Below are positions 2,459 through 41,918 of a stretch of 64,000 nt of DNA, piece by piece. Position 1 is the stretch's first letter; each line of letters starts with the position of its first letter. Both the position numbers and the translations under genes were made by a program. A model generated the notes under the pieces. It was not told the origin of the DNA and did not search any database. It was given only the letters and a program-made list of their open reading frames with translations. Where the stretch lies: the NCBI GenBank assembly GCA_020725545.1, contig DYEV01000008.1, positions 124,001 through 188,000 on the forward strand. Direction: 5' to 3'. Source of the DNA: Desulfobacca sp. (GTDB lineage Bacteria > Desulfobacterota > Desulfobaccia > Desulfobaccales > Desulfobaccaceae).

Positions 2459-2694
2459 ATACTCACTATCTTGCCCAATTTTAATTGAGCCACTGGAATC
2501 TAAAAAAGGCCCCGAATGGAGTTGGGCTAGCGAAAATCACTTTGACTCCGGCGCTGGTTTGCAGTAATAATGGCAGCAACTGGTGGCGGAGGAGGGAACC
2601 CTTGCTGTGGCGCGCGCCACTTGCCCCTGACAACGCCCTCAACCCTCTGCCCTAGACCGAATTCCCTTATTCCCTGTCTGCGATTGGTGAGGCA

Positions 2695-4263
2695 ATGAGG
2701 ATTCTCTGGGCCGACTGGCGCGGCCGTTTACCGTATCGCCGCTATCATGATTGGGAGGATCGGCCCCGCCGTTTGCGGGCCCAGTTGTTCTGCCTGCTGA
2801 CGCTGGCGAGCGGCGGCGTTTACCTGGCCTGGCTGGCCACCCAAGCCTGGCAGCAGCGGACGTTCCATACCACTGTCTTTCTGGCCGCAGAATTGGCCGC
2901 CTACTTCCTGCTGGTGGTCCTCTCTGTGGACGTCTGGCGTCAGCGCTTCCACCACCCTGGGGGTTTGTCTGCCGACCGGCCTTACGCCGTCGATGTCCTG
3001 GTGACCTGCTGCGGTGAATCGTTGGAGGTCATTCGGACGACTTTGACCGCGGTACGGCATTTGGACTATACCCCTTATACCGTCTATGTCCTGGATGACG
3101 CCGGCGATGACCAGGTGGCGGCCCTGGCTCACTCTCTGGGCTTTCTCTATTACTCCCGAGTTAAAGAGGGTCTGCCCCGCCAGGATGCCAAGAGCGGCAA
3201 CCTGAATTTCGGCCTGAGCCGTAGTCAAGGGGAAATTATTCTGGTCCTGGACGCCGACCAGGTCCCCCAGCCCGATATCATCAGCCGTATGGTCGGCTTT
3301 TTCCGTCTGCCCAAAGTGGCTTATGTGCAGAGCCGCCAAGATTTTCTCCTGCCCGACGGCGATCCCTTTTACAATCGCGATGATGTGTTTTACGAAGCCA
3401 TCCAACTCAGCAACGATCAGGCCAATGCCGTCATCTCCTGCGGCTCGGGGGTGCTCTACCGCCGCCAGGCCCTGGTGGAGATGGGCGGCTTTGCCACCTG
3501 GAATATTGTCGAAGACTTTACCACCTCCTATAACCTGGTCAGCCGGGGCTGGCAAGGCATCTATTTCCCCTACGCCCTGTCCCGGGGGCTGGCCCCGGAT
3601 ACGCTGGCGGGCGTGGTGCAGCAGCGCTACCAATGGTGCCTGGATGCCATGCGGCTGTTCTTTTGGGACAATCCATTCTTGAAGGCTGGCTTGACGTTGC
3701 GCCAACGGCTGCACTTCACCATTGTCATGTTGGCTTATGCCATCAGCGGGCTAATCATACCGATTTTCTATTTTCTGCCCCTATATTGTTATATCACCGG
3801 CCGGAGTTTTCTGGTGGAGCAGGAGGTAAACTATCTCCTCTTCCGAGGAATATTTCTGGTCTGCACCATCCTGGCCTTCCATTACCTGTTCTTCCGGAAA
3901 AATGCCTTGAAACAATTAAAGATGCTCTGCGGCCTGTTCCCGGTCTATGCCTGGGGGACGCTGACTGCCCTGTGGTATCCGCCCGGCCGCAAACCTGCTT
4001 ACCGGGTGAATCTGCCCCTGGTCCCGAAACCGCTGCAGACCTTCCTGACCATCCTGCCTCACCTGAGTATCATCGGTTTGCATGCGGCCCTGCCATTTTT
4101 GGCCTTAACGCAGGGCTGGGCTACGCCCCGGCTCATCGCTGCCAATGCCCCCTTTTCGGCCTTTACCATCTGGGTTTTGGGAGAGATGCTCTTTTTGGCC
4201 ATGGCCAAACCCCGCTGGCACGCCGAAACCCATCCCAACTTAGTTTACAACGGCGAGATATAA
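2695..4263 (+). CDS. GT2 family processive glycosyltransferase, cellulose-synthase/PgaC-like
   Basis: N-terminal TM segments, LDDAGDD, VLDADQVP (DxD), IVEDFTTSYNL (ED), QQRYQW (QxxxW), then C-terminal TM helices; no PilZ domain visible. Confidence 0.85.
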   Translation: MRILWADWRGRLPYRRYHDWEDRPRRLRAQLFCLLTLASGGVYLAWLATQAWQQRTFHTTVFLAAELAAYFLLVVLSVDVWRQRFHHPGGLSADRPYAVDVLVTCCGESLEVIRTTLTAVRHLDYTPYTVYVLDDAGDDQVAALAHSLGFLYYSRVKEGLPRQDAKSGNLNFGLSRSQGEIILVLDADQVPQPDIISRMVGFFRLPKVAYVQSRQDFLLPDGDPFYNRDDVFYEAIQLSNDQANAVISCGSGVLYRRQALVEMGGFATWNIVEDFTTSYNLVSRGWQGIYFPYALSRGLAPDTLAGVVQQRYQWCLDAMRLFFWDNPFLKAGLTLRQRLHFTIVMLAYAISGLIIPIFYFLPLYCYITGRSFLVEQEVNYLLFRGIFLVCTILAFHYLFFRKNALKQLKMLCGLFPVYAWGTLTALWYPPGRKPAYRVNLPLVPKPLQTFLTILPHLSIIGLHAALPFLALTQGWATPRLIAANAPFSAFTIWVLGEMLFLAMAKPRWHAETHPNLVYNGEI

Positions 4264-4264
4264 G

Positions 4265-7200
4265 ATGCGGCGCCTCTGGCTGATCGGTACCTTGATCTTT
4301 CTGGGAGCCTTGTTCTGGCAGATCTGGGCCCAAGATCCCTATTTTTACCTCTCCGCCCACGATCTCTTCCGACGGGCCCAGTCTGCCCAGCAAGAAGGCG
4401 ACCAGGCCAAGGCCCTAGAGTTCGCCCAACGGGCTTGGGGTCGGGAACCCCAGAATTGGCAGTATGCCGAGTTCCTGGCTTGGCGCTATCTGGAAGCGGA
4501 CCGACCCGAGAAGGCCCTGGAGCTTTTTCAGCAGATCGGGCAGCAGCAGCCCACGGCGACAGCTCTGACCGGTCAAGTGACGGCCTTGACGCGTTTAGAC
4601 CGGCGGCAGGCAGCCCTCAAGCTGCTGGCCAGTCATCTGGCCGCTCATCCCCAGGATGCTGCCACCCTGCGTTTGGCTGCTGATCTGGCAGCCCAGGAGA
4701 CCGCCACCCAGGAACAGGCCCTGGCCTATTATCAGCGGCTCGCTGCCCTGACTCCCCAGGACCAGGATATTCGCCGCCGTCTGGTGGAGCTGTACATTGC
4801 CCTGGGCCGGTTTGCCGCGGCCATTCCCCTGCAAGAGCAGGTGGTGGCCGACGACCCGGAGAATGTCCAGGCCCTGCATCAATTGGCTCTGCTCTATGCC
4901 TGGCAGCAGGACCATCAGGCCGCGGTGCCCATCTACCAGCGCCTGTTGGAACGGGCGGCCGCTGACCAGGCCCTGCGGTTGGAGGCGGCCAGAAACGCCG
5001 AGGCGGCCAAGGACCTGGATCAGGCCATCTTGCATTATTTGGCGCTATACGCCCGCTCCGGCGGCCAGAAGGAGTATGCTTTGGTCTTGGCCCGCCTGTG
5101 GTCCCAGACCGGCAAACATGCCGAGGCCGCGGCGGTGCTGGCCCCTCTCATGGTGGCGCAACCGACCCTGGAGGAACGCCGTTTCTATGCCCTGGAGCTG
5201 CTCCTGGCTGGCGATTACGGCCCGGCCCTCAAGGCCTATCGCCAGGTCTGGGAGGCCGGGGATTCCCATAAAGAGACGATCCTCAATCTGGCCCGGCTCT
5301 CCGCCCAGCAGCAACACTTCCGGCAGGCGGCCGCCTTTTGGGATGAAGCGGCCCGCCGCCAGTTGCTGGATGCCGACTTGCGCCGGGAGGCGGCCTTGAC
5401 CTACGCCTACGCCCGCCGCTATCAAGATGCGGCGGCGGTGCTGCAGCCCGTGGACCGCCGGGAGCCAAAACTCTTGCTTTTTCTGGGGCAGATGCATTTC
5501 TATCAAAAACAATGGCGTCAGGCGGTTCACTATTATCAGGAGTATCTCCGCCAGGCACCCCACGACGTCGCCGCCCGGCGCCAATTGGCCCAGACCCTAT
5601 CGTTTCTGCCCGAGAGCTTAGAGGCGGCCGCCCGAGAATATGAAGCGGCGGCCCAGGCCAGCGGCGATCCGGCTTTGCTGCTGCAGCGGGCCGCGGTCCT
5701 CCTGCAGTCGGCGCAAAATGCCACAGACGACCCAGATCTCTACCAAGAGGCACCGGTACGGTGGGCGGCGGCGCACAACGCCTTGCAGCAGGTGCCAAGC
5801 ACCGGTCTAAGCCCGGAGCTGCTGCGGGAACAAGGTATTCTTTGGCTCTGGCTCGGCGACCTGGAGCCGGCCTTGGCTTGTCTGGAAAAATATCTGCAGG
5901 TCCGGCCACACGACCGCCAAGCCCACCTGGATAAAGCCCGTACCTTGATTTATTTACAGCAAGGCGCAACCGCGGCCGACGTCTTGCGCCGCCTGCCGCC
6001 TCCCAGCGTGGCGGCGCGCACCTCTGCCCAGGCCGGAGGCGAGGGGGACGAGGCCGTAGCGCCTTCGGAATCGGCGTCGCCAACTGCCGGGGGCGCTGGA
6101 ACCGAGATAGAGGTCCTCACCCTCTTCTTGGAGGCAGCCTTGGCGGACCGGCAATGGCCGGAGGCGCAACGCCGGGCCTGGCAGCTTTATCTCACCCAGA
6201 TGCCGGCCGACACCCCGGCGCCCCAGACCTGGACTGCTGCCCGGCGCCGGCTCCGTGAGGCAGGGACGGCGGTGTCTTTGCCGCCGGCCACCCGGGTGGC
6301 CATGGCCCGGGCCCTCTGCCTATACCCACAGCTCGACCAGGAACAGGAGGTGGTCCGGGTGGCCGTGGATTTGTGCATCGCCAACTTGCGCCCCCGCCCG
6401 CCGGTGGACCAGGTGAGCCGCCAATCTTATCAGGCAGCCCTCCTGCTCCTGAAATATCTCTTGCCCCGCTTGAGCCACTATGAAGACCTCCAGGAACTCG
6501 TTGACCGGCTGCCCGGCGTCCGCGCGCAGTCTCCCGAATATCTGGCCGCCTTGAATTATTTCAGCCGTGATTTGGGCCGCCAGGGCGGCAAACTGCAGTA
6601 TCTCCTGCAGACCCTAGAGGATAGGGAGAGGCAGCATCGGCCCCGACGGCCCGGCGACCTGCTCTTTTTGGCGGCCCTGGCCTCGGAATTGGGCGACTAC
6701 CGGCAAGCGGTGCGTTTTCTGGAGCAGGTCCAGCGCCTCCGGCCCCAGGATGAACGGCTGGCCACCCTGCGGCAACAAGCCCTGGCCGCAGCCCATGAGT
6801 CGGGCCGGCTGCTGCAGGCCCTGGCGGCACGTCCCCAGACCCCGGAGAACGCCCTGGCCATGGCCCAGGTCTCTCTGGAGCGCCTCCAATATGACGGGGC
6901 CTTGGCCCTGCTGGCAGCAGTAGCGCGCGGCGACCGACTCTGGCCCCAGGCCCAGATGCTGGCCATTCAGGCTTATCAAGGTCTGCAGAATTATCCGGCA
7001 GCCCTGGCGGCCATCCGGGAGCTGCAAACCCAGGGCCACCGCGACTTGGCTCTGACCATGGCCGAAGCCCAAGTGCTGGAGGCCATGGACGATCGGCGCG
7101 GGGCCCAGGCGGCTTACCAAACCGTGAGCAATCAGACCCCGGATGCCTTCACCGCCCAAATGGCCCAGGCCCGGTTGGCCCGCTTGCGCCGCGATTGGGC

Positions 7201-8536
7201 CGGGGCCTACCGGCATTTCACGGCGGCTTTGCGTGCGCGGCCCCAGGATATCGGCGTCCTCAACGAACTGGAGCAGATCCGGGAGGAGCTGAGGCCCACC
7301 TTAGCGGCCCGCAATCTGCCACCGTCGTGGCGTGGGGCGCGACGGCCCGAAGAAGCTCTGCGCCCTTGGCAGTTCGGCCGCCATGACCGGGATCCCGGGA
7401 CCTTGGGCGGCTCCCGGGGCTCGGCTCGCTCCCTTTTGCCTTTCCGACTGCCCTATGCCCTGACGCCGGAAACCACCGTCTTTCAGGACCGCCATAAGTT
7501 GGAAGCCCTGGAAACCCGCTTGGCCGGCGGTCTCTGGCTGAGCCGCCTCCTGCCCGTGCACCTGGCCCTGGGCTACCGGGTTTATCAACAGCACACCACG
7601 GGGCCGGGACCGGCCAACCTGAATCTGGGCCTCCAACCGGTGTTTCAGCAGACCAGTCACAACCGCACGACCTGGGAGCGGGGCGAAGCCACTCTGACTC
7701 TGGGGCCGTTGGTCATGGGCGAGCGCCTCAAGCTGACCGGCGACCTCAGCGGTCGCCGGTATTGGCGGCAATTAAAACAGCAGGTCAGCCAGTACGGCCA
7801 GAAAACCATTCCCTTCCCGCCAGTGATTCTCAATACCCTGGCCGGCGCAACTTTCTCAGAGAAGGAGGCTCGCAACCGCCTTCTGGGGAGCTTGGCTCTG
7901 GATATTGCCGTTGGCGCGTCAACTGATCTCACCCTGCGCTACGGCCGCCGGGATATCTTTGACCAGGACCCGGCCATTTATCCACGCCTCTTTCAGCAGA
8001 TCAGCCGTTTGGACACCTTGCCGCTCCTGACCCTAGATCAGGTGGATCTGGCCCTCAGCCATCAGTTTTTCCCAGGCCTGAGCTACCAGGGCAATCTGGC
8101 CCAGGCCTTTTTCAGCGACCTGAATCAACGTTTCACCCTCTACCAAGGGCTGCGGTGGCAGGCGGTCAATCAGCCCCACATGCACCTGGACCTGACGCCC
8201 AGCTATTATCTGGCCCTGTACCGGTACCGCCGAGAAGCCTATTTCAGTCCCCATACCTATCAGGCCTTTGGGCTGAGCATCGACTTTGACCGGCAGCTCT
8301 TCCCGATGCCCATTCTGCCGCGTTTTCTCTTTCTGCTGCCCACGTTAGTGCTGCAAGTCACGGGACAGGTGGTAGACAACGACGGCCGCTGGGGCCCGGC
8401 CTTGTCTACCCTGGCGGGACTGGAGGCCGAACCGGTGCAAAATCTCTATGTGGGCCTGCACTATTTCTTCTTCAAGGAATGGGCCACCAATTATTGGTTC
8501 AACAGCCTGATCTTTGGGCTGAAGTGGCGGTTTTAG
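4265..8536 (+). CDS. large TPR-repeat protein with C-terminal outer-membrane beta-barrel-like region (BcsC/PgaA-like exporter)
   Basis: 1423 aa; N-terminal hydrophobic segment, many TPR-like repeats, last ~400 aa rich in alternating hydrophobic/polar strands and ending in ...FGLKWRF (terminal aromatic typical of OMPs). Confidence 0.75.
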   Translation: MRRLWLIGTLIFLGALFWQIWAQDPYFYLSAHDLFRRAQSAQQEGDQAKALEFAQRAWGREPQNWQYAEFLAWRYLEADRPEKALELFQQIGQQQPTATALTGQVTALTRLDRRQAALKLLASHLAAHPQDAATLRLAADLAAQETATQEQALAYYQRLAALTPQDQDIRRRLVELYIALGRFAAAIPLQEQVVADDPENVQALHQLALLYAWQQDHQAAVPIYQRLLERAAADQALRLEAARNAEAAKDLDQAILHYLALYARSGGQKEYALVLARLWSQTGKHAEAAAVLAPLMVAQPTLEERRFYALELLLAGDYGPALKAYRQVWEAGDSHKETILNLARLSAQQQHFRQAAAFWDEAARRQLLDADLRREAALTYAYARRYQDAAAVLQPVDRREPKLLLFLGQMHFYQKQWRQAVHYYQEYLRQAPHDVAARRQLAQTLSFLPESLEAAAREYEAAAQASGDPALLLQRAAVLLQSAQNATDDPDLYQEAPVRWAAAHNALQQVPSTGLSPELLREQGILWLWLGDLEPALACLEKYLQVRPHDRQAHLDKARTLIYLQQGATAADVLRRLPPPSVAARTSAQAGGEGDEAVAPSESASPTAGGAGTEIEVLTLFLEAALADRQWPEAQRRAWQLYLTQMPADTPAPQTWTAARRRLREAGTAVSLPPATRVAMARALCLYPQLDQEQEVVRVAVDLCIANLRPRPPVDQVSRQSYQAALLLLKYLLPRLSHYEDLQELVDRLPGVRAQSPEYLAALNYFSRDLGRQGGKLQYLLQTLEDRERQHRPRRPGDLLFLAALASELGDYRQAVRFLEQVQRLRPQDERLATLRQQALAAAHESGRLLQALAARPQTPENALAMAQVSLERLQYDGALALLAAVARGDRLWPQAQMLAIQAYQGLQNYPAALAAIRELQTQGHRDLALTMAEAQVLEAMDDRRGAQAAYQTVSNQTPDAFTAQMAQARLARLRRDWAGAYRHFTAALRARPQDIGVLNELEQIREELRPTLAARNLPPSWRGARRPEEALRPWQFGRHDRDPGTLGGSRGSARSLLPFRLPYALTPETTVFQDRHKLEALETRLAGGLWLSRLLPVHLALGYRVYQQHTTGPGPANLNLGLQPVFQQTSHNRTTWERGEATLTLGPLVMGERLKLTGDLSGRRYWRQLKQQVSQYGQKTIPFPPVILNTLAGATFSEKEARNRLLGSLALDIAVGASTDLTLRYGRRDIFDQDPAIYPRLFQQISRLDTLPLLTLDQVDLALSHQFFPGLSYQGNLAQAFFSDLNQRFTLYQGLRWQAVNQPHMHLDLTPSYYLALYRYRREAYFSPHTYQAFGLSIDFDRQLFPMPILPRFLFLLPTLVLQVTGQVVDNDGRWGPALSTLAGLEAEPVQNLYVGLHYFFFKEWATNYWFNSLIFGLKWRF

Positions 8537-9748
8537 ATGCGACCCGGGCAATTGCGGCTGATCGGCTGGGGTATTCTTGCTTTGGCCTGGCTCATCCTGA
8601 GCGGCTGCGCTGAGGTGACCAAACCTGCGCCTACTCGGGCTGAGGTGGCCTCGGTGCAGGTTGCCGCCCTCACCCGGCACCCACAGGCCAGTTACCAGAA
8701 AGAGCGGGCCATGCGGGTCTTTCTGCGGCTGCTGCCCACCCTCCCCCGGATCCATGGCCGCACCTACCCCTTCCTGGGCTTCAACTGGTGGGTCACCGAA
8801 GCCGGTCAGCCCGTGGTCGATGCGGTCTGGGCGCCGTCGCCGGCCCGGGACCGCCCTTTAAAAGGACAGGCTGCCACCCTCTTGGACCCCGATGACGAAC
8901 GGTCGCCGCCCCCCGACCAGGAAGCGGCCCTCAAGCCGGGGGATCTTATCCTGGCGGTGAACGGCATGTCTATCCCCACCTGGGTAAAGGAGTGGGATCA
9001 AGCCAGCCGGACCCTGAAACAGGTTCTGCGGTCGTCGCTGCCTGGAGAATTCTTGGTGAATCTGGTTCTAACCGCCTGCGCCGCCCGGGAGGAGATGGCC
9101 GGCCGCTACCGGGGGGGGCCGGTCACCCTGCTGGTGGACCGTCAGGGCGCCAGACGCCAGGTTACCCTCTATCCCGTATATTTGCCGGCCGAATATGGGC
9201 TCTTGCTCGTCACCGGCCAGGCCGGCAATGCCTTCAATGCCTTTGCCGCGCCTGGCTGCCTCATGATTACCCGGGCCATGCTGGAGATGTGCCGCACCGA
9301 CGATGAGCTGGCCATCGTCTTGGGCCACGAACTGGCGCATCTGGCCAAAGGCCATCTGGTGCGCCGCCAGGCCTATGCCCCGGTGTCCCAATTGGTGGCC
9401 GATATCATTGCTCTGCCTTTCAAGTTTTTCTGGCCGAACTCTGCCTGGTATTATGGTGTCAGTGAAGATATTCGCCGGGTTGCCAGCGGCGCGGTGATCA
9501 GCGTTTTCAGCCGCCAGGATGAATGGGAGGCCGACGCTTACGGCCTGTGGTATGCTTATCAGGCCGGCTATGCGGTAGATCAGGGAGTGATGATCTGGGA
9601 ACGCCTGGCCGTGGTGGTCCAACAGAACGTCTTTGAGACGACTTATTACCTGGACGCCCACCCGGCCGCAGCGGCACGTCTGGCCCGCCTCAAAAAAATG
9701 GCCCGGCTTTTTCAAGAAGGCCAGGCCGCTCAGGTTTTGGTGCCCTGA
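8537..9748 (+). CDS. M48-family metalloprotease lipoprotein with PDZ-like insert
   Basis: Lipobox LILSGC near N-terminus; PDZ-like PGDLILAVNGMSI; HELAHLAKGH (HExxH); EWEADAYGL second metal-ligand motif. ATG directly follows the upstream stop. Confidence 0.82.
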   Translation: MRPGQLRLIGWGILALAWLILSGCAEVTKPAPTRAEVASVQVAALTRHPQASYQKERAMRVFLRLLPTLPRIHGRTYPFLGFNWWVTEAGQPVVDAVWAPSPARDRPLKGQAATLLDPDDERSPPPDQEAALKPGDLILAVNGMSIPTWVKEWDQASRTLKQVLRSSLPGEFLVNLVLTACAAREEMAGRYRGGPVTLLVDRQGARRQVTLYPVYLPAEYGLLLVTGQAGNAFNAFAAPGCLMITRAMLEMCRTDDELAIVLGHELAHLAKGHLVRRQAYAPVSQLVADIIALPFKFFWPNSAWYYGVSEDIRRVASGAVISVFSRQDEWEADAYGLWYAYQAGYAVDQGVMIWERLAVVVQQNVFETTYYLDAHPAAAARLARLKKMARLFQEGQAAQVLVP

Positions 9749-30621: not shown

Positions 30622-32091
30622 TTGTCAAGGAAGGCTGCGGTGCGTCGACTCAGTCAAAAATTTCTCAGATTACTCATCAAAATCCTGGACCAGGTGATCC
30701 TTCTGACGGCCCTGCTGACAGCCGCGGCCGCAGTCTACCACGATCTGGAAGACTTCAGTTTCATGGGCTTTCTCTCCCTCCGCCTGGAAATTAGCAATAT
30801 TTTCGTGGTGCTGGGCCTCATGGTCCTTTGGTCTGGTCTGTTGTCGGCCATGCATCTGTATCAGTTGCGCAAGTTCAGTTCCTGGCGCCGGGATGCACTG
30901 GATGTCTGTCAGGCGGCCACGATTTTGACGTTGGTTTTTCTCCTGGTGTCCTCCTTGATCAATATTTCTTTTGCTAAGCCTTTATTTTTCTTTCTTTTCT
31001 GGGCGATTCTGACCTTGGCCAGCCAATTGCTCCGCTTATTGTGGCGGAGCTGGTTGGAGTTTTTCCAACGTCAGGGGCTGCACCTCACCCAGGTGCTCAT
31101 GGTGGGTACCAACAGCCGGTCGGTGGCCTTTGCCCGGGCCATAGAAAACAAACTGGAGTTGGGCTATCGGGTCATCGGTTTCGTGGACAATGACTGGTTC
31201 GGCCTGAAGAAATTTTTGGCCAGTGGCTATCCCTTGTTGTCTGATCTGAAAAATTTTCCTCAGTATTTACGGGAAAATGTCGTTGACGAAGTGATCATTG
31301 ATCTGCCCTTAAATACCTACTATCAGCAGGTGGCCACCATCGTTAGCCATTGCCTGGAACAAGGCATTCTGGTGCGCTTTGTCTCCGACAGCTTTTACCT
31401 CCTGCGCAATCTGCGGCTGGGGCGCACTGCTTTTGAAGAATTCAATGATACCACCGTTATTTCCGTCTACAACGGCGTGCTGGGTGGTCTGCCCCTGGCG
31501 GCCAAACGCCTGGTGGATATGGTGGGGGCCCTGGCCTTGCTGGCACTGTTCTCGCCGCTGATGGTGGTTGTGGCCCTCCTCATCAAGCTCACCTCGCCGG
31601 GGCCGGTTTTTTTTGTCCAGGAACGTTTGGGTCTCAATAAGCGTCTGTTCCGGATGTATAAATTCCGGACCATGGTAGTCGATGCAGAACAGCATCAGGC
31701 GGAATTGGAAAAGTTGAATGAAATGGGGGGGCCGACTTTTAAAATCAAGGACGATCCCCGGGTAACCCCTCTCGGTGCCATCCTCCGACGGACCAGCATT
31801 GATGAATTGCCGCAGCTGGTCAATGTCCTGAATGGGGATATGAGTCTGGTGGGCCCGCGGCCGCTGCCAGTTCGGGATTACCGGGGTTTTAATGAGGATT
31901 GGCACCGCCGCCGCTTCAGCGTCAAGCCCGGCCTCACCTGTCTGTGGCAGATTCAGGGCCGGAATTCTCTGTCCTTCGAAACATGGATGAAACTTGATCT
32001 GCAATACATCGATCAGTGGTCCTTTTGGCTGGATATCAAGATTCTCCTGGGCACCCTGCCGGCGGTGCTCCAGAAAAAGGGGGCTTATTAG
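30622..32091 (+). CDS. polyprenyl-phosphate hexose-1-phosphate transferase (WbaP/WcaJ-type sugar transferase)
   Basis: TTG start; N-terminal TM bundle plus CoA-binding-like domain; [80 protein letters not shown]. Confidence 0.93.
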
Positions 32092-32092
32092 C

Positions 32093-32845
32093 ATGGTGGC
32101 ATTCTTCCTGTTTGGGTTCCTGCTCCTGGCCGGTCCTGCCAGTGGCGGCGAGGATATCAGGTTCGAGCAGTTTTCCCCCAGGGAAGAGCAGTTGTGGTTG
32201 GATCGGCTCCGCCGGAACCCGCAAGACGCCCGTTCCTATTTTTTCCTAGGGAGATATTATGATTTTGTGCATCGTGATCAGGACGCGGCCAATGCCTTCA
32301 AAAAGGCCACACTCTTGCGTCCTGATTGGGCCCAGGCCTTTTTCAACCTGGGGAAGCTCTATCATCGCCTGGGGCGCATGCCGGACGCGGCCGTGGCCCT
32401 GCGCCGCGCCACCCTGTTGAAAGCCGATTATGCGGCAGCCTATCATTTTCTTGGTCTGGTGGAGATCAACCTGGGGCATTATCCGGAGGCCGCCACCGCC
32501 CTGATTAAAGCCTATGACGCCAATCCGGGGTGGGCCGAAAAATACTACGACGGCACCAGTTATGGGATCCATTCGGAGTTCGAGCAGAAAGAGGTCGTCC
32601 TCCGCTTAGTACAGCTCATCTATCCCACGAACCAGCGTCTGGCCCGTCTGCTCTATAACCGGTGGGCTCGGGGAAATGCCGGTATGAAGGAATATTGGCG
32701 AGAGGTGGCCGGGGCCGAAAAACGCTCGGAAACGGGCTACCAGGAGCCCCCCCTGAGCGGTTATCCCGAACCCCCTCAGCCTGGTTACCTCCGCGGGCCG
32801 GAGGTGGGGTTCCAGCGTGGTTTGGAAGGCCGTTATGGCCGCTAA
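32093..32845 (+). CDS. secreted TPR-repeat protein in EPS cluster
   Basis: Signal-peptide-like MVAFFLFGFLLLAGPASGG; TPR-like repeats (DAANAFKKATLLRPDWAQAFFNLGKLYHRLGRM). Confidence 0.75.
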   Translation: MVAFFLFGFLLLAGPASGGEDIRFEQFSPREEQLWLDRLRRNPQDARSYFFLGRYYDFVHRDQDAANAFKKATLLRPDWAQAFFNLGKLYHRLGRMPDAAVALRRATLLKADYAAAYHFLGLVEINLGHYPEAATALIKAYDANPGWAEKYYDGTSYGIHSEFEQKEVVLRLVQLIYPTNQRLARLLYNRWARGNAGMKEYWREVAGAEKRSETGYQEPPLSGYPEPPQPGYLRGPEVGFQRGLEGRYGR

Positions 32846-32857
32846 GGAGGGGGGCCA

Positions 32858-35119
32858 ATGCGGGGAGGGAACCACATGACCAGTGAATCCCAACAGACCG
32901 GCAGACGCATCTCCCTTCGAGATGTCTTGTTTATTTTTTTCTACAAGCTCCCAGTTTTTGAGCTGGTTCTGGGTTTCATCGTCAGCTGCACCATTCTTCT
33001 GGCCCTGCTCAAAACACCGGTCTATCAGGCCAGCGGCCAGATTTTGGTTAAACCGATGTTGGAGCCGAGCCTGAAGCTGCAGGCACCGATCTCCACTAAT
33101 ATCCGGGCCAATCCAGTTACCTCCCAGGACGTCAATTCAGAGGTGAATATCCTAAAATCGCCCCAATTGCTCCGGGACGTGGTCCAGCGCCTGGAACTCT
33201 ACCGGCCCCAGGAGCCGAGCACGGTGTGGCAACGTTGGCAAAGGTGGGTCGGTGAGACCTTGAACGCGGCCCTCATCGCCAGCGGTATGCGTACGCCGTT
33301 GGGACCGGTGGAGCAGGCCCAGTTAGAGCTGGAAAAACGATTGGAAATCAAGCCGGTGACCTTATCGAATACCATTGCGGTGTCCCTGCGAGGCGAGTCG
33401 CCGGAAAAAATTGCCAAGATCGTCAACACTCTCATGGAAACATTTATTGATTACCACATCGCCGTTTTCAAGGCCAAGGGCGCCCGGGAGTTTTATACGG
33501 CCCAAGCCGAATTCTACCGGCAGCGGCTGGAGGAGGCCGAAGCCAATCTGGAGAAATTCAAAAAGAAGTGGGCCATCATCGAGATCAATGCCCAGAATGA
33601 GACCAATGTGGAGCTCCTCAAGATCCTCAATGAAAATCTCACGCTGACTCTGGCCCAAATCCGGGATCGGGAGACCAAAATCGGCGTCCAGGTCAATAAC
33701 CTGGCCAAAACCGGCGAAGTGGGGGCTCTGACCAAAGATTTGCAGAACAATATCGTGGAGGAATTGGTCCGGGTGCTGGGGCCGCTCATGGCCGAACGGG
33801 AGCGCCTGGCTGTGCATTATCAGGAGGGCAGCGACAAGCTGCTGGCCATGGAACGGCAGATCCAAGAAATCAAGGAAAAATATGACCGACAGATTAAAGG
33901 GTTGGTGCATGGGGCCCAATTAGACCTGAACGGTTTGAAAAAATACGCCAAAACCCTACAAGACAACATGCAAAAATTAAAGGAGCAGTCTGTTCTCCTG
34001 TCACAGCAGCAGATTGAATTGGACCGGTTGTTGCGGGAAGTCAAGCAGAACGAAAAACTTTATCTGCTCTATCGGGACAAAATGGAGGAAGCCCGCATCG
34101 AAGAGCAGCAGGAGGCCAACCGGGTCTCCAATGTTACCGTGACCACCTGGGCTGAACCGCCGGCCGTGCCCGTATTCCCGAAAAAGACCCTGATGGTCCT
34201 GCTGGCCGTCATTATTGGCAGTATCGTCGGTTTGGCCGGCACCTTCATTTCCTATTACCTGGATCACGCCGTGAAAACGCCTGAGGAATTGGCCTGGCAT
34301 GCGGGCCTGCCGGTGTTGGCGACCGTCCGGGAGATGGCGGAGACCCCGGCGCCAGCGCTCCCGGGGCAGGTTGCCAAAGCCGGGGGGCCGCCCTTGTGGA
34401 TGCTCACCCCGGCGGCGTACCCCCAGCTCCATGGTGATTACAGCAACATGAAAAACAATCTCTTGCTGCACAAACAGCATCATGGCTCCAAGCTCTTCCT
34501 GTTCACCGGCCCGGCTCCGGGTGTCGGAGTTTCCACGACCTGTGGCAACCTGGCGGTGCTGCTGGCCAGAGATCTTTTGGATCAACGGATTCTGCTGGTG
34601 GATGGCAATCTAGTCGATCCGGTGGTACACCTGGCTTTTCAGAAAAACAGAGCGCCTGGCCTGCTGGATTATATCTGTCAAGCCAGCCGCAATCCGGCCC
34701 TGACCGGCAACCCCACGCGGGCTGCAGCAGCGCAAGCGGCTGCGTCGCAGGCGATCTTGGAGTTTCAGCAAGTAGTGCAACCCACGGGGCTGGCTAATCT
34801 CGACCTGGTTACCCTGGGCACTCAGGATCCTCAGATCGTCTCCCCTTTTGATTTAAAGAAGTTTTCAGAGTTCCTGCAGGAGGCGCAGACGCATTACGAT
34901 CTGATCTTGTTGGATGGGTCGCCCCTGTTCAGCTCCAGCAACAGTCTGATTATTGCCGCGCAAGTGGATGGCATTGTCATGGTAGTAGAAGCCTGCCATA
35001 CCCGGTATGAAGTGGTCAGCGAAATGAAATATCTGCTGGCGCGGCACGGCAACATCAGCGGCGGGGTCTTGAATAAACGCCAGTACGTCATCCCCGGCTC
35101 CATTTATAAATACATCTGA
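32858..35119 (+). CDS. Wzc/GumC-like polysaccharide chain-length/BY-kinase-type protein with degenerate Walker A
   Basis: Wzz-like TM (IVSCTILLALLKTPVYQASGQILVKP), coiled coils, second TM, then C-terminal MinD/BY-kinase-like fold FTGPAPGVGVSTTCGNLAVLLA...ILLVDGNLVDPVVH...DLILLDGSPL. Confidence 0.85.
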   Translation: MRGGNHMTSESQQTGRRISLRDVLFIFFYKLPVFELVLGFIVSCTILLALLKTPVYQASGQILVKPMLEPSLKLQAPISTNIRANPVTSQDVNSEVNILKSPQLLRDVVQRLELYRPQEPSTVWQRWQRWVGETLNAALIASGMRTPLGPVEQAQLELEKRLEIKPVTLSNTIAVSLRGESPEKIAKIVNTLMETFIDYHIAVFKAKGAREFYTAQAEFYRQRLEEAEANLEKFKKKWAIIEINAQNETNVELLKILNENLTLTLAQIRDRETKIGVQVNNLAKTGEVGALTKDLQNNIVEELVRVLGPLMAERERLAVHYQEGSDKLLAMERQIQEIKEKYDRQIKGLVHGAQLDLNGLKKYAKTLQDNMQKLKEQSVLLSQQQIELDRLLREVKQNEKLYLLYRDKMEEARIEEQQEANRVSNVTVTTWAEPPAVPVFPKKTLMVLLAVIIGSIVGLAGTFISYYLDHAVKTPEELAWHAGLPVLATVREMAETPAPALPGQVAKAGGPPLWMLTPAAYPQLHGDYSNMKNNLLLHKQHHGSKLFLFTGPAPGVGVSTTCGNLAVLLARDLLDQRILLVDGNLVDPVVHLAFQKNRAPGLLDYICQASRNPALTGNPTRAAAAQAAASQAILEFQQVVQPTGLANLDLVTLGTQDPQIVSPFDLKKFSEFLQEAQTHYDLILLDGSPLFSSSNSLIIAAQVDGIVMVVEACHTRYEVVSEMKYLLARHGNISGGVLNKRQYVIPGSIYKYI

Positions 35120-35128
35120 GGCATGGCC

Positions 35129-35881
35129 ATGAAATTGATAAAACCAAAAAGTCGAAGGTTCGATCTACTCTGGTGGTGGAGCCTCAGCCTGCTTCTCTTG
35201 GCAGGCTGCAGCAGCATGCAGCCGGCCCGGACGGCCAGCGACCTGGCGGCGGAACCAGTGGAACCCCTGACCTTGTCGGCTGGCGACGTCATCGATGTAA
35301 AATTTTTCTATACCCCGGAACTGGACGAAAGCCAGATTGTCCGACCGGATGGCTTTATCAGCTTGCAGTTGGTGGGGGATGTGCGCGTCGACCACCTGAC
35401 CCCAGGGGGGCTCCAGCAGGAACTGCTCAGACGCTATGCCCCCCATCTCAAAAACCCAAAGATTACGGTCCTGGTCCGGCGGGTCTACGACGCCCGCATT
35501 TGGGTCGCCGGCGAAGTAAAACGGCCCGGGCCGGTCCAGATGAACGGCAGGCTCACGGTTTTGGAAGCGGTGATGGAGGTTGGCGGAGGCACCAGGCCGA
35601 CGGCGGACCTGGCTAAAGTGTTGGTGGTCCGCCAGAAAAATGACGGCCGGCACTATGGCTGCCTGGTGAATCTGAAAGATGTCCTCCAGGGTCGGGAAGG
35701 GCAGCAATTCTTCCTCCATCCCCGGGATGTGGTCTTTGTGCCGCCCACGAGCATTACCAGAGCCAATGACTGGGTCGATCAATACATCAACAAGATGGTG
35801 CCCCAGGCCCGGACCATTGTGGAATATCCCATCGGTCCGGGGGGCGGCGGCACCGCCGGCATTGATACCAGCGCCCGTTAG
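35129..35881 (+). CDS. polysaccharide export lipoprotein, Wza family (SLBB)
   Basis: LLLLAGCSSMQ lipobox; LTLSAGDVIDVKFFYTPELDESQIVRPDGFISLQLVGDVRVDHLTPGGLQQEL. Confidence 0.9.
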   Translation: MKLIKPKSRRFDLLWWWSLSLLLLAGCSSMQPARTASDLAAEPVEPLTLSAGDVIDVKFFYTPELDESQIVRPDGFISLQLVGDVRVDHLTPGGLQQELLRRYAPHLKNPKITVLVRRVYDARIWVAGEVKRPGPVQMNGRLTVLEAVMEVGGGTRPTADLAKVLVVRQKNDGRHYGCLVNLKDVLQGREGQQFFLHPRDVVFVPPTSITRANDWVDQYINKMVPQARTIVEYPIGPGGGGTAGIDTSAR

Positions 35882-35901
35882 GTGTGCCGGAAGGCAAAAA
35901 C

Positions 35902-36039
35902 ATGGCAAAAAAAACCAAACTCAGCGATATGCTGTGGCTGGTGCTGTCCATGCTGATCGGACTGATGATTATCTATGCTTTTTATCTCTTGGTGCAGTAT
36001 TGGAGCCAGTCCACCCTCCAGAACCAGTTGTTTCTCTAA
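35902..36039 (+). CDS. small single-TM protein (45 aa) between wza-like and wzy-like genes
   Basis: Not in the supplied ORF track; ATG 35902 to TAA 36037-36039: MAKKTKLSDMLWLVLSMLIGLMIIYAFYLLVQYWSQSTLQNQLFL; ggaagg SD-like motif upstream. Confidence 0.6.
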   Translation: MAKKTKLSDMLWLVLSMLIGLMIIYAFYLLVQYWSQSTLQNQLFL

Positions 36040-36093
36040 GCGACCTACGCAACGCCACTATCTGGAGACTGTCTCTCAAGAGGGGAGCCGCCC

Positions 36094-37587
36094 TTGACAA
36101 ATAAACCGCACCATCTCCCAACCCCGGGGGGCCTGGAATGGACCGGCACCGCCTTGCTGGGCCTGAGCACCGCCCTCGTCCTGGTCCAAGCCTTCCTGCT
36201 GCCTCCCAAGTGGACGGTTTTTATCCTCTTTTCTCTCTGCGCCCTGGCAGGGCTGGCCATGATCCGACGGCGAGAGAGGTTTATCATCTATCTGGCCGTG
36301 TTCTTCATGAGTGTCTACCTGGATTTTCATCCCTATTTCCTGCAAACCGACTCAACTCCCTGGCCCGTGGCCGGCATTCGCATCAGCATTTTTGATGTGA
36401 CCTTTTTTGGCCTGATGGTGGCCTGGGCAAGCCGCCTGTTGTTGCAGCCGACGGAAGTCCTGCGCTTTTATCCCGCCCTCAGCCTGCCCTTTTTTCTGTT
36501 GTGGGCTCTGGCGGTGCTGAGTTCTGCCCGTGCGGCCATCCCCCTGATCATTAAAATTGACACCTTGTGGATGGTCTTCCAGAGTTGGCTGATTTTCCTT
36601 TACTTTGCCAACACCTGCCAGGATCGTCACCTGCTGAGCGCCATTGTGGCAACCCTGCTGCTCAGCGGCGTCTTACAGGCCTTGTTGGGTCTGAGCCAGT
36701 ATATTAGCGGCAGTTCCCTGGGGTTGGAAATTTTCGGGGAAAGCAAGAGTTTCATGGAGATGCGGGCCGGCACCGAGCTGGTCAGCCGGGTAGCCGGTAC
36801 CTTTGGCCATCCTAATAATCTATCGGCCTATCTGACCATGTTGATCATGATCAATCTGGCTCTCCTCTTTGCGGATATCGACCTGCGGTGGAAATCTCTC
36901 CTGGTGCCGGTGTTGTTTCTGCTCGGTCTGGCCAATCTGTTGACCCTTTCCCGGGGTGGCTGGCTGGCCACCACCATTGGTGCCTATGTGACCCTGGCCC
37001 TCTGTTGGGGGCGCCTCTGGCGGCATCGGCTGTCAGCTTTTCTGCTGGCCGGGATAATCCTGTTTACCTTTGTCTTATCCACGTTAGTCTTTGTGGAACC
37101 ACTGAAACGTCGGTTCTTTGAGGAGGATTATGGCGCGGCCCAATCCCGGCTGCCCATGTCCCTGGTGGCCCTGAATATCATCCGCCATCACCCTTTCCTG
37201 GGTGTGGGGTTGACCAATTATGTCATGGTGGCACCCAAATATGACATCACCAAAGAAGCCATTGCCACCGACTTCGCCCGTCCGGTCCACAATGAATTCC
37301 TCCTGATCGCCGCGGAGTTGGGCCTGCCGGCCCTCCTGCTCTTTGTGACTATTCTGTTAATATTACTGCACCGGTTATGGCACCTGAGCAATACTTCCCC
37401 CGATCCGGTGCTGCCTTATCTGGCCATCGGCTTCCTGGGCACGTACATCGCCTGGATCGTCTTTCGACAGACGGATTATGCCTATGTCCTGTTAGCAGAC
37501 CCGTTCTGGATAATTGCTGGTCTCAGCCAAGCCATGATCGCCCTGGAAGCAAACAGTCTGCCAACTACAACTCATGGTAATTCATGA
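36094..37587 (+). CDS. O-antigen ligase/polymerase-like membrane protein (Wzy/WaaL family)
   Basis: TTG start; multiple TM segments; GTFGHPNNLSAYLTMLIMINLALL, LTLSRGGWLATTIGAYVTL, FARPVHNEFLLIAAELGLPALLLF. Confidence 0.82.
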   Translation: MTNKPHHLPTPGGLEWTGTALLGLSTALVLVQAFLLPPKWTVFILFSLCALAGLAMIRRRERFIIYLAVFFMSVYLDFHPYFLQTDSTPWPVAGIRISIFDVTFFGLMVAWASRLLLQPTEVLRFYPALSLPFFLLWALAVLSSARAAIPLIIKIDTLWMVFQSWLIFLYFANTCQDRHLLSAIVATLLLSGVLQALLGLSQYISGSSLGLEIFGESKSFMEMRAGTELVSRVAGTFGHPNNLSAYLTMLIMINLALLFADIDLRWKSLLVPVLFLLGLANLLTLSRGGWLATTIGAYVTLALCWGRLWRHRLSAFLLAGIILFTFVLSTLVFVEPLKRRFFEEDYGAAQSRLPMSLVALNIIRHHPFLGVGLTNYVMVAPKYDITKEAIATDFARPVHNEFLLIAAELGLPALLLFVTILLILLHRLWHLSNTSPDPVLPYLAIGFLGTYIAWIVFRQTDYAYVLLADPFWIIAGLSQAMIALEANSLPTTTHGNS

Positions 37588-38302
37588 GCTGGACAGGCAA
37601 GGGTAATCCTTCCCACCAGGACGTTGTTAGGAGCGCGGTTTCGGCTCCAAAGTCCGGATGCCCTGGATGGACCATAAGTTCCAGGGTGCGGAAGCGGGCC
37701 AGGTCTTTTTGGGATGCCTGAAATACGGTATTGAATCGGCCGAAGCCATCGGTCGTGCGGCTGGGGGGGATGAATTTCACGGCCAGGTTCCAGAAAAAGT
37801 TCTGGCGGCTGGGGCGCTGCGACGCGGGAACGAGGTTTTCTGCCAAACGGACTTTCGTGAGGCCGGTCTGCCGTTGCAGCTGCTTCAGGGTCCAAAAGAG
37901 CTGGGGCTGAACATGGACATCGTGGTGTGAATCCAGATGACTGATCCTGAGGCCTGCAGCCTGGACACGTGCGATTTGACTGAGCCACTCCCGGAAGATG
38001 GCCTGGCGCAGGGCCGCCCCAAAGCGAGCAGACTGAAAGGTGTTGCGGCTGAACCGCCCGGTCTCGTCCAGCAGCGGCTGCAAATCGGGGGTCGCGGTAA
38101 GAGGCCGGAACTGGGTCAGGTTCAAATGGACCCCGAACGAGCACCAGGGGAACTGCGCCGCCTGGCGGGCAGCCGCCTCCCAAAACGGGGCGTTGGCCAG
38201 GATAGTGGCCGAAGTGATGCGGCGACGGGCCATAAGGGCAAAGATGCACTCGCTCACCTCTTGGCTCAGACCCAGGTCATCGGCATTTACGATTATGCGC
38301 AT
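37565..38302 (-). CDS. ChbG/HpnK (YdjC) family deacetylase
   Basis: MRIIVNADDLGLSQEVSECIFALMARRRITSATILAN; FGVHLNLTQ; HLDSHHDVHVQPQLF; ELMVHPGHPD. Confidence 0.9.
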   Translation of the reverse strand: MRIIVNADDLGLSQEVSECIFALMARRRITSATILANAPFWEAAARQAAQFPWCSFGVHLNLTQFRPLTATPDLQPLLDETGRFSRNTFQSARFGAALRQAIFREWLSQIARVQAAGLRISHLDSHHDVHVQPQLFWTLKQLQRQTGLTKVRLAENLVPASQRPSRQNFFWNLAVKFIPPSRTTDGFGRFNTVFQASQKDLARFRTLELMVHPGHPDFGAETALLTTSWWEGLPLPVQLMNYHEL

Positions 38303-38428
38303 TTGTCTCCCTAGCACCTTGAGGCTGGTGAAACTCAACATGTGTGATCAGTTGTCCCCATGATATCAGGTAAAGCGGCTATTGGGCAAGGAACCTTGGC
38401 GGCCTGTTATAGTGGCGGTGGCGACAGC

Positions 38429-39220
38429 ATGCCGCCGGTTTGGACTACCCACGGTCTTCTGGCCCGGTGGGGGCGGAGTCTGCCAGCCCGCCAGACCTTG
38501 GCCCTGCTGAAACCCTACCGCACTACGGGGACCCTCCTGGAACTCGGTCCCGGCCGGGGGGATGTTTTGCTTGCGGCCCGGGCCGCCGGCTTTACGGTTT
38601 CTGGTCTGGAAATTAATCCCGAAAGGGCCCGCTGCATCAGAGAGCGGTTGGGGTTGCCCTGCGCCAGCACGCCACTGACCGACTCACCTTGGCTAGGCCG
38701 CCGCTTCGATATAGTTTACCATCGCGATGTCCTCAGCCATTTTTATGACCAGGTGGCGGAGTTTCATCGGATCCATGATGTTCTCGGGGAAGACGGCTTG
38801 CTGATTTTTGAAACGGGTAATCTGGGGGAAGTAGCGACAAGGTATCTCTCCTTGGTCCCCACCTTCGATTATCCGGAACACCTTTATTTTTTCGGGGAGA
38901 AGAGTCTGCGGCGTCTGTTGGCGCTTACCGGCTTTCACTTGCTGACCTTGCGGCGGTATGACCTGGAGGTCTATTTCTGGCTGGCACGCTTGGCCAAGGC
39001 CATGCGCAGCTATCGAACGGCAGCGGCCGATCCTGCGGGCAGGCTGCCAGGAAACCCGAAACCGCGGCGGCCGCCCGAGGCTCGTCGAGCCGGAGGCCAG
39101 GCCCTCTGTTGGCTGGGCTATGAATTTGTTGCCGAATCCCTCTGGAAATATCAGGTTGGAAGCTGGTCGCCCCGACGGGGGCGGCCCCAGACCCTGGTTG
39201 TCATCGCCCGACGGATATAA
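38429..39220 (+). CDS. class I SAM-dependent methyltransferase
   Basis: LLELGPGRGDVLLAARAAGFTVSGLEINPERARCIRERLGL; HFYDQVAEFHRIHDVLGEDGLLIFETGN. Confidence 0.85.
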   Translation: MPPVWTTHGLLARWGRSLPARQTLALLKPYRTTGTLLELGPGRGDVLLAARAAGFTVSGLEINPERARCIRERLGLPCASTPLTDSPWLGRRFDIVYHRDVLSHFYDQVAEFHRIHDVLGEDGLLIFETGNLGEVATRYLSLVPTFDYPEHLYFFGEKSLRRLLALTGFHLLTLRRYDLEVYFWLARLAKAMRSYRTAAADPAGRLPGNPKPRRPPEARRAGGQALCWLGYEFVAESLWKYQVGSWSPRRGRPQTLVVIARRI

Positions 39221-39225
39221 GATTC

Positions 39226-40392
39226 GTGCATATTCTTTATTTTGCCCCGGTAAATCTGGACCGACCCAATGCCGTGCAGACCCATACCCTGGGGCTGCTG
39301 CAGGGATTCAGCCGTCAGGGTGCCCGTGTGGCCGCGGTTCTGCCCCGACCGACGCGGCCCCTGCCAACTCTCGCCGGAGTAACCTATCATTATTACGGCC
39401 CGTATCGAGGCGGCCGCCGCCACCTACCCCGAGAAATTCTGGTCAGTTCCCTGCTGCTGGAGCGGTTGTGTCGGAGGCAAACCTTTGACGCCATCTATGC
39501 CCGGGATATGGATGTGTTTCTCGGTCCCCGCCTCTGCTCCCGATTGTTTCATCTGCCCCTGTTTTTGGAGATCGATGACACGCCGGTGGAGGGAGATTAT
39601 CCCTCCCTGATCCGCCCCTGGGTGGAATACAACCTCAGGTGTGATTATCGCCAGGCCAGCGGCCTGATCGTCCCCTCGGTGCCCCGCAGTATGATTTTGC
39701 AGGAGCGATTCCAGGTGCCGGCCGCCAAGATTCATGTGGTGCTCAATGGCGCTGAGGATATCCCCACCCAACCGCTCACTCCCGAGGAGGCCAAGGCCCG
39801 CCTGGGCCTGCCGGCCGACAGTTTCTGCCTGGGGTATGTGGGCACGGTCAACGACCGCTATGATTTTGCCACCATGTTGAAAGCCATGGCCCGGAGTGAG
39901 CCCGCAGTCCCGCACCTGCGGTTTGTCCTGGTGGGCGCCGGCCCCTGCCTGCCGGCCGTGGAGCAGCTGGTCGTCAGCATGGGACTCAGCAACCGGGTGA
40001 TTTTTACCGGGTTTGTCCAGCCGGACCGCTTCCCTGCACTGCTGCCCGCCCTGGATGTTGGCCTCATGGTTCTAACCGCCTCAGCCCTCGTGGAACACGG
40101 CCCGGTCCATACCAAACTGGCCACCTACGGCCTCTACGGGCTGCCAGTGATCACCGCAGCTTACTCCCTGGCCGGGTATCCTGAAGGTCTCCGATCAGGG
40201 CTTTTCCTGGTACCGCCCGCAGACCCGGAGAGGCTGGCAATCCTGATCATCGCTCTGGCCCAGCAGCCCCAATACCGCCAAGCCGCAGGCGCAAGCTTGC
40301 AGGATTTTGTCCGCCACAAACTTACCTGGACCATAGTGGCCGGGGAGATCCTCACGATCATGGCCAAGGCCGTCAAGGCACGGGCTCATTAA
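39226..40392 (+). CDS. GT4 family glycosyltransferase
   Basis: VVLNGAEDIPTQPLTPEEAKARLGL; LGYVGTVNDRYDF; FTGFVQPDRFPALLPALDVGLMV. Confidence 0.85.
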   Translation: MHILYFAPVNLDRPNAVQTHTLGLLQGFSRQGARVAAVLPRPTRPLPTLAGVTYHYYGPYRGGRRHLPREILVSSLLLERLCRRQTFDAIYARDMDVFLGPRLCSRLFHLPLFLEIDDTPVEGDYPSLIRPWVEYNLRCDYRQASGLIVPSVPRSMILQERFQVPAAKIHVVLNGAEDIPTQPLTPEEAKARLGLPADSFCLGYVGTVNDRYDFATMLKAMARSEPAVPHLRFVLVGAGPCLPAVEQLVVSMGLSNRVIFTGFVQPDRFPALLPALDVGLMVLTASALVEHGPVHTKLATYGLYGLPVITAAYSLAGYPEGLRSGLFLVPPADPERLAILIIALAQQPQYRQAAGASLQDFVRHKLTWTIVAGEILTIMAKAVKARAH

Positions 40393-40412
40393 ACGGGCCT
40401 TTGGAGCGCTTC

Positions 40413-41918
40413 ATGTCCCTCCCCCTTCCCCCCCAGAGCCCCGCCGCCGACACCCGGGAGACCAACCGGCTGCTGGCCATCAATACCGGTCTGCTCACCC
40501 TCACCGAACTGCTCACCAAAGTAATGAGTCTGGTACTCATCATCCTGGTGGCCCGGACCTTGGGGCCGGCCCAAATGGGCATCTATGCCTTTGCCCTGAC
40601 CTTTATCCAGATCTTTGAAGTAATAGTTAATTTTGGCTTGGAACGCTACATCCAACGTGAGGTGGGCCGCCGCGTCGGTTTGGCCGGGCCACTTTTCAGC
40701 CAGATCTTTTCTTTCAAGGCGATCCTGTATCTGCTCATCTGGATGGCCATCCTGGGACTGAGCGCTTTTTTCTTTGACAGTCCTTTGAAACGTCAGGTGG
40801 TCTGGATTCTCAGTCTTACCCTTTTTTTCCGGACCAATCTGACTTCCACCACGGCTTTTTTCCGGGCCACCCTGCAGGCCAAATATGAGGCCCTGGTAAT
40901 CATCAGCCTGCGGCTGGTTTATACCACGGCTGGCATGGCGGCGGTGTTGGCCGGTTATGGCCTGCTGACATTGGTAAGCCTGGAACTGCTGGCCACCGTC
41001 ACGGCCTGCACCTTGGCCTGGTGGCTTAGCCGGCACCGTTTCGGCTGGAGCTGGCAACGCCCAGTTTGGCCAGAGCTCTGGGGCTTGGCCCAGGCTGCCA
41101 GGGATTTTTTCCTGCTCCGGCTGGTCTTGGTCGTCTTTACGGCCATCGACATGCTCATGCTCTCCTGGCTGTGCGGTGACGTAGCCACCGGCTTCTATGC
41201 CGCGGCTATCCGTCTGACAACAGCCCTGGATTTCTTCCCCGAGGCCTTTGGCGGGGCCTTTCTGCCGGTCTTGAGCCGGCGTGTCCAGGAAGGCTGGCAA
41301 GCCTTTACCGAGGTCTTCCAAAACTACTATAAATATCTCCTCATTGTGGGGTTGGGACTGACCGTGGGCTTGAGCGGCCTGGCCGCTCCGGGGATCACTA
41401 CTCTTTTCGGGACCGCCTTTTTGCCCGCAGTGGCCACGTTGCGTTGGCTGGCCCTGGCCCTGCTGTTGGATTATCTCAACCGCTGTCTGGCCAATATTTT
41501 TATTGCGGTGGATGAGGAAAAACAACTCTTGAAAATTTTTGGCCTGGCCGCCGGCGCCAAGATTCTGTTCGCCTTTCTGCTCATACCCTTGTACCAACAG
41601 AACGGCGCGGCCCTGGCCGCAGTTCTGGCTGAAGCAGTGGTCCAGACCCAGCTGCTTTCTACGCTGGGACGGCAGCGGTTGGCCCCGCTGCGCCTGGTTC
41701 ACCTGGCCAAGCGGCCGCTCTTGGCCTCGGCCTTAACCGGCGGGGCGATATGGGGTTTCAGTCGCTGGCCGCTGCCCCTGCTGGTGCAGCTGCCATTGGC
41801 CGTCTTGGCCTTTGGCATGAGTTTGCTCTTGACCAGAGCCCTTTCCTGGCAGGAAGTAGTGGCGGGCCGTAATCTGCTGCGGACGCAAGGGAGGACGCAT
41901 GCTGCCGGGGCATCCTGA
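40413..41918 (+). CDS. oligosaccharide flippase (Wzx/MATE-like family)
   Basis: 14-TM style; LTELLTKVMSLVLIILVARTLGPAQMGIYAFALTFIQIFEVIVNFGLERYIQREVGR. Confidence 0.88.
   Translation: MSLPLPPQSPAADTRETNRLLAINTGLLTLTELLTKVMSLVLIILVARTLGPAQMGIYAFALTFIQIFEVIVNFGLERYIQREVGRRVGLAGPLFSQIFSFKAILYLLIWMAILGLSAFFFDSPLKRQVVWILSLTLFFRTNLTSTTAFFRATLQAKYEALVIISLRLVYTTAGMAAVLAGYGLLTLVSLELLATVTACTLAWWLSRHRFGWSWQRPVWPELWGLAQAARDFFLLRLVLVVFTAIDMLMLSWLCGDVATGFYAAAIRLTTALDFFPEAFGGAFLPVLSRRVQEGWQAFTEVFQNYYKYLLIVGLGLTVGLSGLAAPGITTLFGTAFLPAVATLRWLALALLLDYLNRCLANIFIAVDEEKQLLKIFGLAAGAKILFAFLLIPLYQQNGAALAAVLAEAVVQTQLLSTLGRQRLAPLRLVHLAKRPLLASALTGGAIWGFSRWPLPLLVQLPLAVLAFGMSLLLTRALSWQEVVAGRNLLRTQGRTHAAGAS

Follow-up and report, generated by a model that had tools for sequence, protein, structure and literature searches.

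The locus studied here raises the question of whether three tightly packed genes, encoding a GT2 synthase, a TPR-barrel protein and an M48 metalloprotease, together form an exopolysaccharide (EPS) secretion system, and what part a protease would play in it. Synthase-dependent systems are usually described as a synthase, a co-polymerase, a hydrolase or modifying enzyme and an exporter. The trio lies in a stretch of 64,000 nucleotides (the window) from a Desulfobacca sp. genome of 2.94 Mb, and its open reading frames are exactly those given in the preliminary description, with almost no space between them. The synthase stop codon (TAA, 4261-4263) is separated by one base from the ATG of the TPR gene at 4265, and the TPR stop codon (TAG, 8534-8536) is followed immediately by the ATG of the M48 gene at 8537 (gap = 0). 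An Rfam scan of the first 13 kb gave no match. Our analyses indicate that the trio is probably a synthase-dependent EPS secretion system.

Table 1 Features of the trio locus in the window, and neighbouring genes in related loci.
Feature	Position	Strand	Remarks
Sigma-70-like promoter candidate	2542..2571	+	Upstream of synthase; consensus scan, 10/12 matches; weak evidence
GT2 processive synthase, BcsA-like core, 522 aa	2695..4263	+	
TPR-barrel exporter, 1423 aa	4265..8536	+	
Predicted exporter C-terminal beta-barrel, ~16 strands, PgaA/BcsC/PelB type	7459..8533	+	AF2, Foldseek, PF21197
M48 metalloprotease lipoprotein with PDZ-like domain, 403 aa	8537..9748	+	
Kinase/regulator/HD-GYP neighbours	L044, L056, L057, downstream of M48	opposite strand	

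The trio was found together in all sampled members of one sulfate-reducing order, and nowhere else among the bacteria sampled from the phylum. In a search of 59 relatives, an M48 orthologue (full, split or cut by a contig end) was present in 28/28 order members, and the genomes farther off gave only generic M48 matches limited to the catalytic domain. In the 25 relatives whose short loci reach far enough, the M48 gene is immediately preceded by the TPR-barrel gene. In a set of 21 longer loci, comprising stretches from 20 genomes and one public contig (L038), the order GT-TPR-M48 on one strand is kept in 20/21 as well as in the window, the lone exception lying at a contig end; the TPR gene is split in two of these loci (L055 and L059), probably by frameshifts. 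Of 345 genomes across the phylum, the same 15 were matched by the barrel profile and by the M48 N-terminal profile, all of them within the order. The GT profile matched 14 of these 15, plus a few more distant GTs, and in the fifteenth genome (G011) the contig is broken at this point. The arrangement recurs at 35-85% protein identity, arguing against chance, and no flanking genes are common to the window and other genera, suggesting that the trio itself is the conserved unit. The proposed check for co-occurrence thus gave a clear outcome, with the orthologues linked wherever contigs allow. Among named relatives, an uncultured Desulfobacca is the closest (M48 protein, 79%), and plasmid and phage records gave generic M48 matches only, or none. 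A neighbouring aldehyde ferredoxin oxidoreductase gene was considered as a part of the system and rejected, being not common to other genera. Histidine kinases, response regulators and HD-GYP proteins adjoin the trio in many relatives (Table 1), and a link to cyclic-di-GMP is possible.

The first protein matches PF13641 at 2.5e-21, and its GT domain is flanked on both sides by predicted transmembrane helices. The window copy carries the GT2 motifs DD, DAD, ED (in the form VED) and QRYQW, the catalytic DD, DAD and ED residues being conserved in the family, and no PilZ domain was detected on the synthase by a Pfam scan. The last motif can be refined from QxxxW to QRxQW. QR[YF]QW is present in 17/17 aligned family members, with Gln in place of the Arg of QxxRW, a change that also occurs in four more distant GT relatives and could reflect a different donor or acceptor. 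The best-matching family is BcsA, at 194 bits versus a curated cut-off of 699 bits (TIGR03030) that was reached in 0/30 genomes; the PgaC model scored 64.5 bits against a cut-off of 422. The synthase family profile (A2) matched BcsA structures at 3.6e-53 to 3.8e-52, the alignment spanning the catalytic region and the adjacent transmembrane helices. Most order genomes have no BcsA-like GT at 1e-30 other than that of the triad. In one relative (G003, locus L043), the GT match has one in-frame TAA and the open frame begins ~35 residues later, which may represent an internal start or a damaged gene.

The 1423-residue second protein had been read as a TPR protein with a C-terminal barrel, a call that held up in several respects. 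It matches PF14559 at 9e-25, and PgaA_barrel (PF21197), weakly matched in the window copy, matches 15/15 relatives (best 7e-8), six of which are also matched by BCSC_C. An AF2 model covering the C-terminal 539 residues predicts TPR helices and ~16 long strands, with the barrel at about residues 1065-1423, although the strand count is approximate given the low confidence of the model (pLDDT 60). The four best PDB matches of this model in Foldseek are BcsC (twice), PgaA and PelB (9b8a, 6tzk, 4y25 and 9h80_M). The exporter profile (A3) found no match among PDB sequences, so that it is the fold and the Pfam matches that link the protein to known exporters. Phe is the last residue of every C-terminus examined. 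The features expected of a TPR-barrel EPS exporter, namely a TPR array, a barrel of ~16 strands and an aromatic end, are thus present, the barrel being drawn from a low-confidence model. As in PgaA, the TPR and barrel regions are in one chain. PelB offers a further likeness, having a large TPR scaffold, a 16-strand barrel and an N-terminal helix with no clear cleavage site, the helix being read as an uncleaved anchor that bridges both membranes (PMC12141448). The trio exporter is alike in all three respects: behind its N-terminal hydrophobic helix (residues 4-22) comes a conserved stretch rich in Asp and Pro, and an AxA cleavage site is not consistently present, suggesting that the protein may have an anchor in each membrane, as PelB is proposed to. 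The polymerase of the Pel system, PelF, is a separate cytoplasmic glycosyltransferase, in contrast to the GT2 synthase of the trio, and neither a PelC ring gene nor other Pel genes (PelA, D, E, G) adjoin the trio.

The system therefore resembles Bcs in the GT2 core, which aligns with BcsA, and in the fold of the exporter, which is like that of BcsC, yet it differs in its other components. BcsB was found in 0/29 order genomes, whereas the E. coli and B. subtilis controls gave signal. No PgaB-type gene lies next to the trio, in contrast to PgaABCD. The preliminary description had held that no accessory gene adjoins the trio, and this stands for the locus, which has neither BcsB nor BcsZ; the genome as a whole is not hydrolase-free, since a GH8 gene (the BcsZ family) unlinked to the trio is present in 28/29 order genomes. 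No GH8 gene was found within triad loci or, in the eight neighbourhoods examined, beside EPS genes. The catalytic-region motifs are kept in most of the eight GH8 copies read. In the phylum sample, GH8 is present in 15/15 order members versus 18/330 genomes outside the order. It is plausible that GH8 is a trans-acting partner of the trio, and it would then probably fill the role of BcsZ, but the case is weakened by the fact that shared ancestry of one order could also explain the co-occurrence.

The phylogeny of the synthase places all QRxQW GTs in one clade separate from ordinary BcsA (100/100). Its second branch contains a synthase from genome G117 that is sister to the triad synthases (98/96) and is their nearest relative outside the order. 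In G117 the genes for a TPR/barrel protein and GH8 come side by side after the GT gene, so that GH8 holds the third position, the place occupied by M48 in the window. The G117 and triad barrels show weak similarity (hhalign E 0.0004, probability 35%), and no further GT relatives were found in the order of G117. At this locus (L097, 4346-10128), a GGDEF/HD-GYP protein also adjoins the QRxQW GT together with the GH8 and TPR/barrel genes, and the TPR gene seems to be frameshifted. The first branch holds the GTs of G163 and G146 and the second copy of the window genome, all adjoining GH26 genes. This second copy (L100, 9805-12125, in G000:C34) is apparently cut at its N-terminus and lies beside a GH26-like gene; the GT-GH26 pairing recurs in the related loci L098 and L099, in an apparent PEP-CTERM/EPS cluster, and may represent a separate, uncharacterised polymer system.

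What the trio makes is a further question, and a cellulose-like product is favoured, if only slightly. Instead of a glucan, the product might be a uronic-acid-containing polymer made from UDP-galacturonate or UDP-glucuronate, since in 11/20 relatives (neighbourhoods L044-L059), though not in the genus of the window, the GT gene is immediately preceded by one for a UDP-GlcA 4-epimerase-like protein, and the synthase carries QRxQW rather than QxxRW. The encoded protein has its best PDB match in 5u4q at 1e-100 and also matches 6zla-type epimerases, and the position of its gene is a hint that the sugar might not be glucose. However, the epimerases of two near-complete genomes that have the trio (G002 and G010) are only 29-35% identical, and the best copy of the window genome reaches 55% and is located elsewhere. 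Moreover, the order has GH8 enzymes, for which we know of no action on polyuronates. A uronic-acid polymer is regarded as distinctly unlikely. The epimerase was also considered as a fourth core gene and rejected, as no close copy exists in the two near-complete genomes.

The description of the third protein as an M48 lipoprotein with a PDZ-like module also proved sound. It matches PF01435 at 4.8e-23 in the window copy, with M48 matches in 17/17 members, and carries a lipobox (LSGC, C24) with an invariant Cys (17/17) and Ala at +2. HELAH (264-268), DEWEAD (328-333) and HPx4R (375-381) follow; essentially every member retains HExxH, the downstream Glu and HPx4R (17/17 by count). The PDZ match is weak in the window copy, and PDZ models match up to 12/17 relatives. 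The M48 family profile also matches an Aquifex RseP homologue in its PDZ domains (3.6e-12), and the PDZ region has weak fold-level matches to those of DegS, AlgW and RseP. PDZ domains have a carboxylate-binding loop, and the sequence of an FLGF loop (79-82 in the window copy) fits this role; it is kept in 17/17 members, and precedes GD.ILAVN (GDLILAVN, 135-142) by 32 residues in those without a genus-specific insertion. The confidence of the AF2 model is low (49), the model being too poor for the PDZ domain to be placed against the protease.

The catalytic domain is BepA-like, BepA crystal structures being among the Foldseek matches of the protein, and the HExxH motif, the Glu ligand and the HPx4R motif, which acts in BepA as an autoregulatory active-site plug (PMC7950410), are shared with BepA/YfgC. 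In contrast to BepA, the trio protein has a PDZ domain in place of the C-terminal TPR domain, plus a lipoprotein signal; with 40 bits on the BepA model against a cut-off of 570 bits and no TPR, it does not qualify as a BepA orthologue. The BepA-like catalytic domain, and the wide distribution of M48 proteins, of which the window genome has five, would suit a protease for envelope quality in general whose gene happens to share an operon with the other two, the three proteins not cooperating, and operon position by itself is no proof of a client. However, the linkage is kept throughout the order, down to 35% M48 identity, while other neighbours change, and the N-terminal domain of the protein is found only alongside this barrel. 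The window genome also has a separate BepA-type M48-TPR protein, indicating that the trio copy is not the housekeeping one. Independence of the protease from the exporter is considered very unlikely.

A role in regulation was also weighed, in which the trio is an EPS synthase-exporter and the M48-PDZ protein cleaves an envelope regulator or the synthase and so sets the amount of polymer. The precedent is JspA of Sinorhizobium, an M48 lipoprotein whose loss lowers EPS-I and which acts through ExoR-ExoS-ChvI (PMC10659215), and the PDZ region has the weak fold-level likeness noted above to stress-sensing proteases. JspA, however, has a LysM domain, and its gene does not belong to an EPS synthase operon, whereas the protease gene of the trio is always directly behind the exporter gene and no regulator gene adjoins the trio consistently across the genera. 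We consider regulation of this kind unlikely.

An assembly or gating role for the protease, as first proposed, is what we infer from gene linkage, domain make-up and analogy, and participation in the assembly or quality control of the exporter is put forward tentatively. As a whole, a cellulose-like, BcsB-free synthase-dependent system in which an M48-PDZ lipoprotein acts in some way on behalf of the exporter has about an even chance of being correct. In such a system, the inner-membrane GT2 would polymerise and translocate a beta-glucan, most likely cellulose-like, without PilZ or BcsB, and the TPR-barrel protein would lead the chain through the periplasm and out via its barrel of ~16 strands. 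The M48-PDZ lipoprotein would be a dedicated exporter protease whose PDZ domain recognises the C-terminus of a client, the simplest candidate being the C-terminus, ending in Phe, of a barrel not yet assembled. Recognition may free the HPx4R plug, so that stalled barrels would be degraded or correct assembly promoted. DegS senses the C-termini of outer-membrane proteins, and this precedent, together with the Phe C-termini, suggests the barrel as the client. In its full form, this proposal gives an EPS system with a BcsB-free QRxQW synthase lineage an M48 protease of its own, which the PDZ domain guides to the C-terminus of the exporter barrel and which, having read it, turns either to assembly or to destruction. 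That form is unlikely as it stands; if true, it would amount to a private BepA/DegS-like surveillance devoted to one outer-membrane channel.

No paper naming an M48 protease as a component of a synthase-dependent EPS system was found in the open-access literature, and a classification of EPS operons mentions no protease (PMC7112194), in agreement with the earlier view that the locus fits no described subtype. An order-wide system without BcsB and with its own metalloprotease would imply that exporter assembly or turnover can belong to an EPS operon. The trio would offer a simple natural test bed for the assembly of TPR-barrel exporters, as well as for the way in which a GT2 synthase copes without BcsB and the QxxRW Arg. 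In addition, the window contains a Wzx/Wzy-type polysaccharide locus at 30622-46024, with genes for a sugar transferase (PF02397), a chain-length protein (GNVR), a Poly_export lipoprotein, a Wzy_C polymerase/ligase, a flippase, two GT4-type enzymes and WecG/TagA, and the genome thus appears to hold a second, unrelated EPS route.
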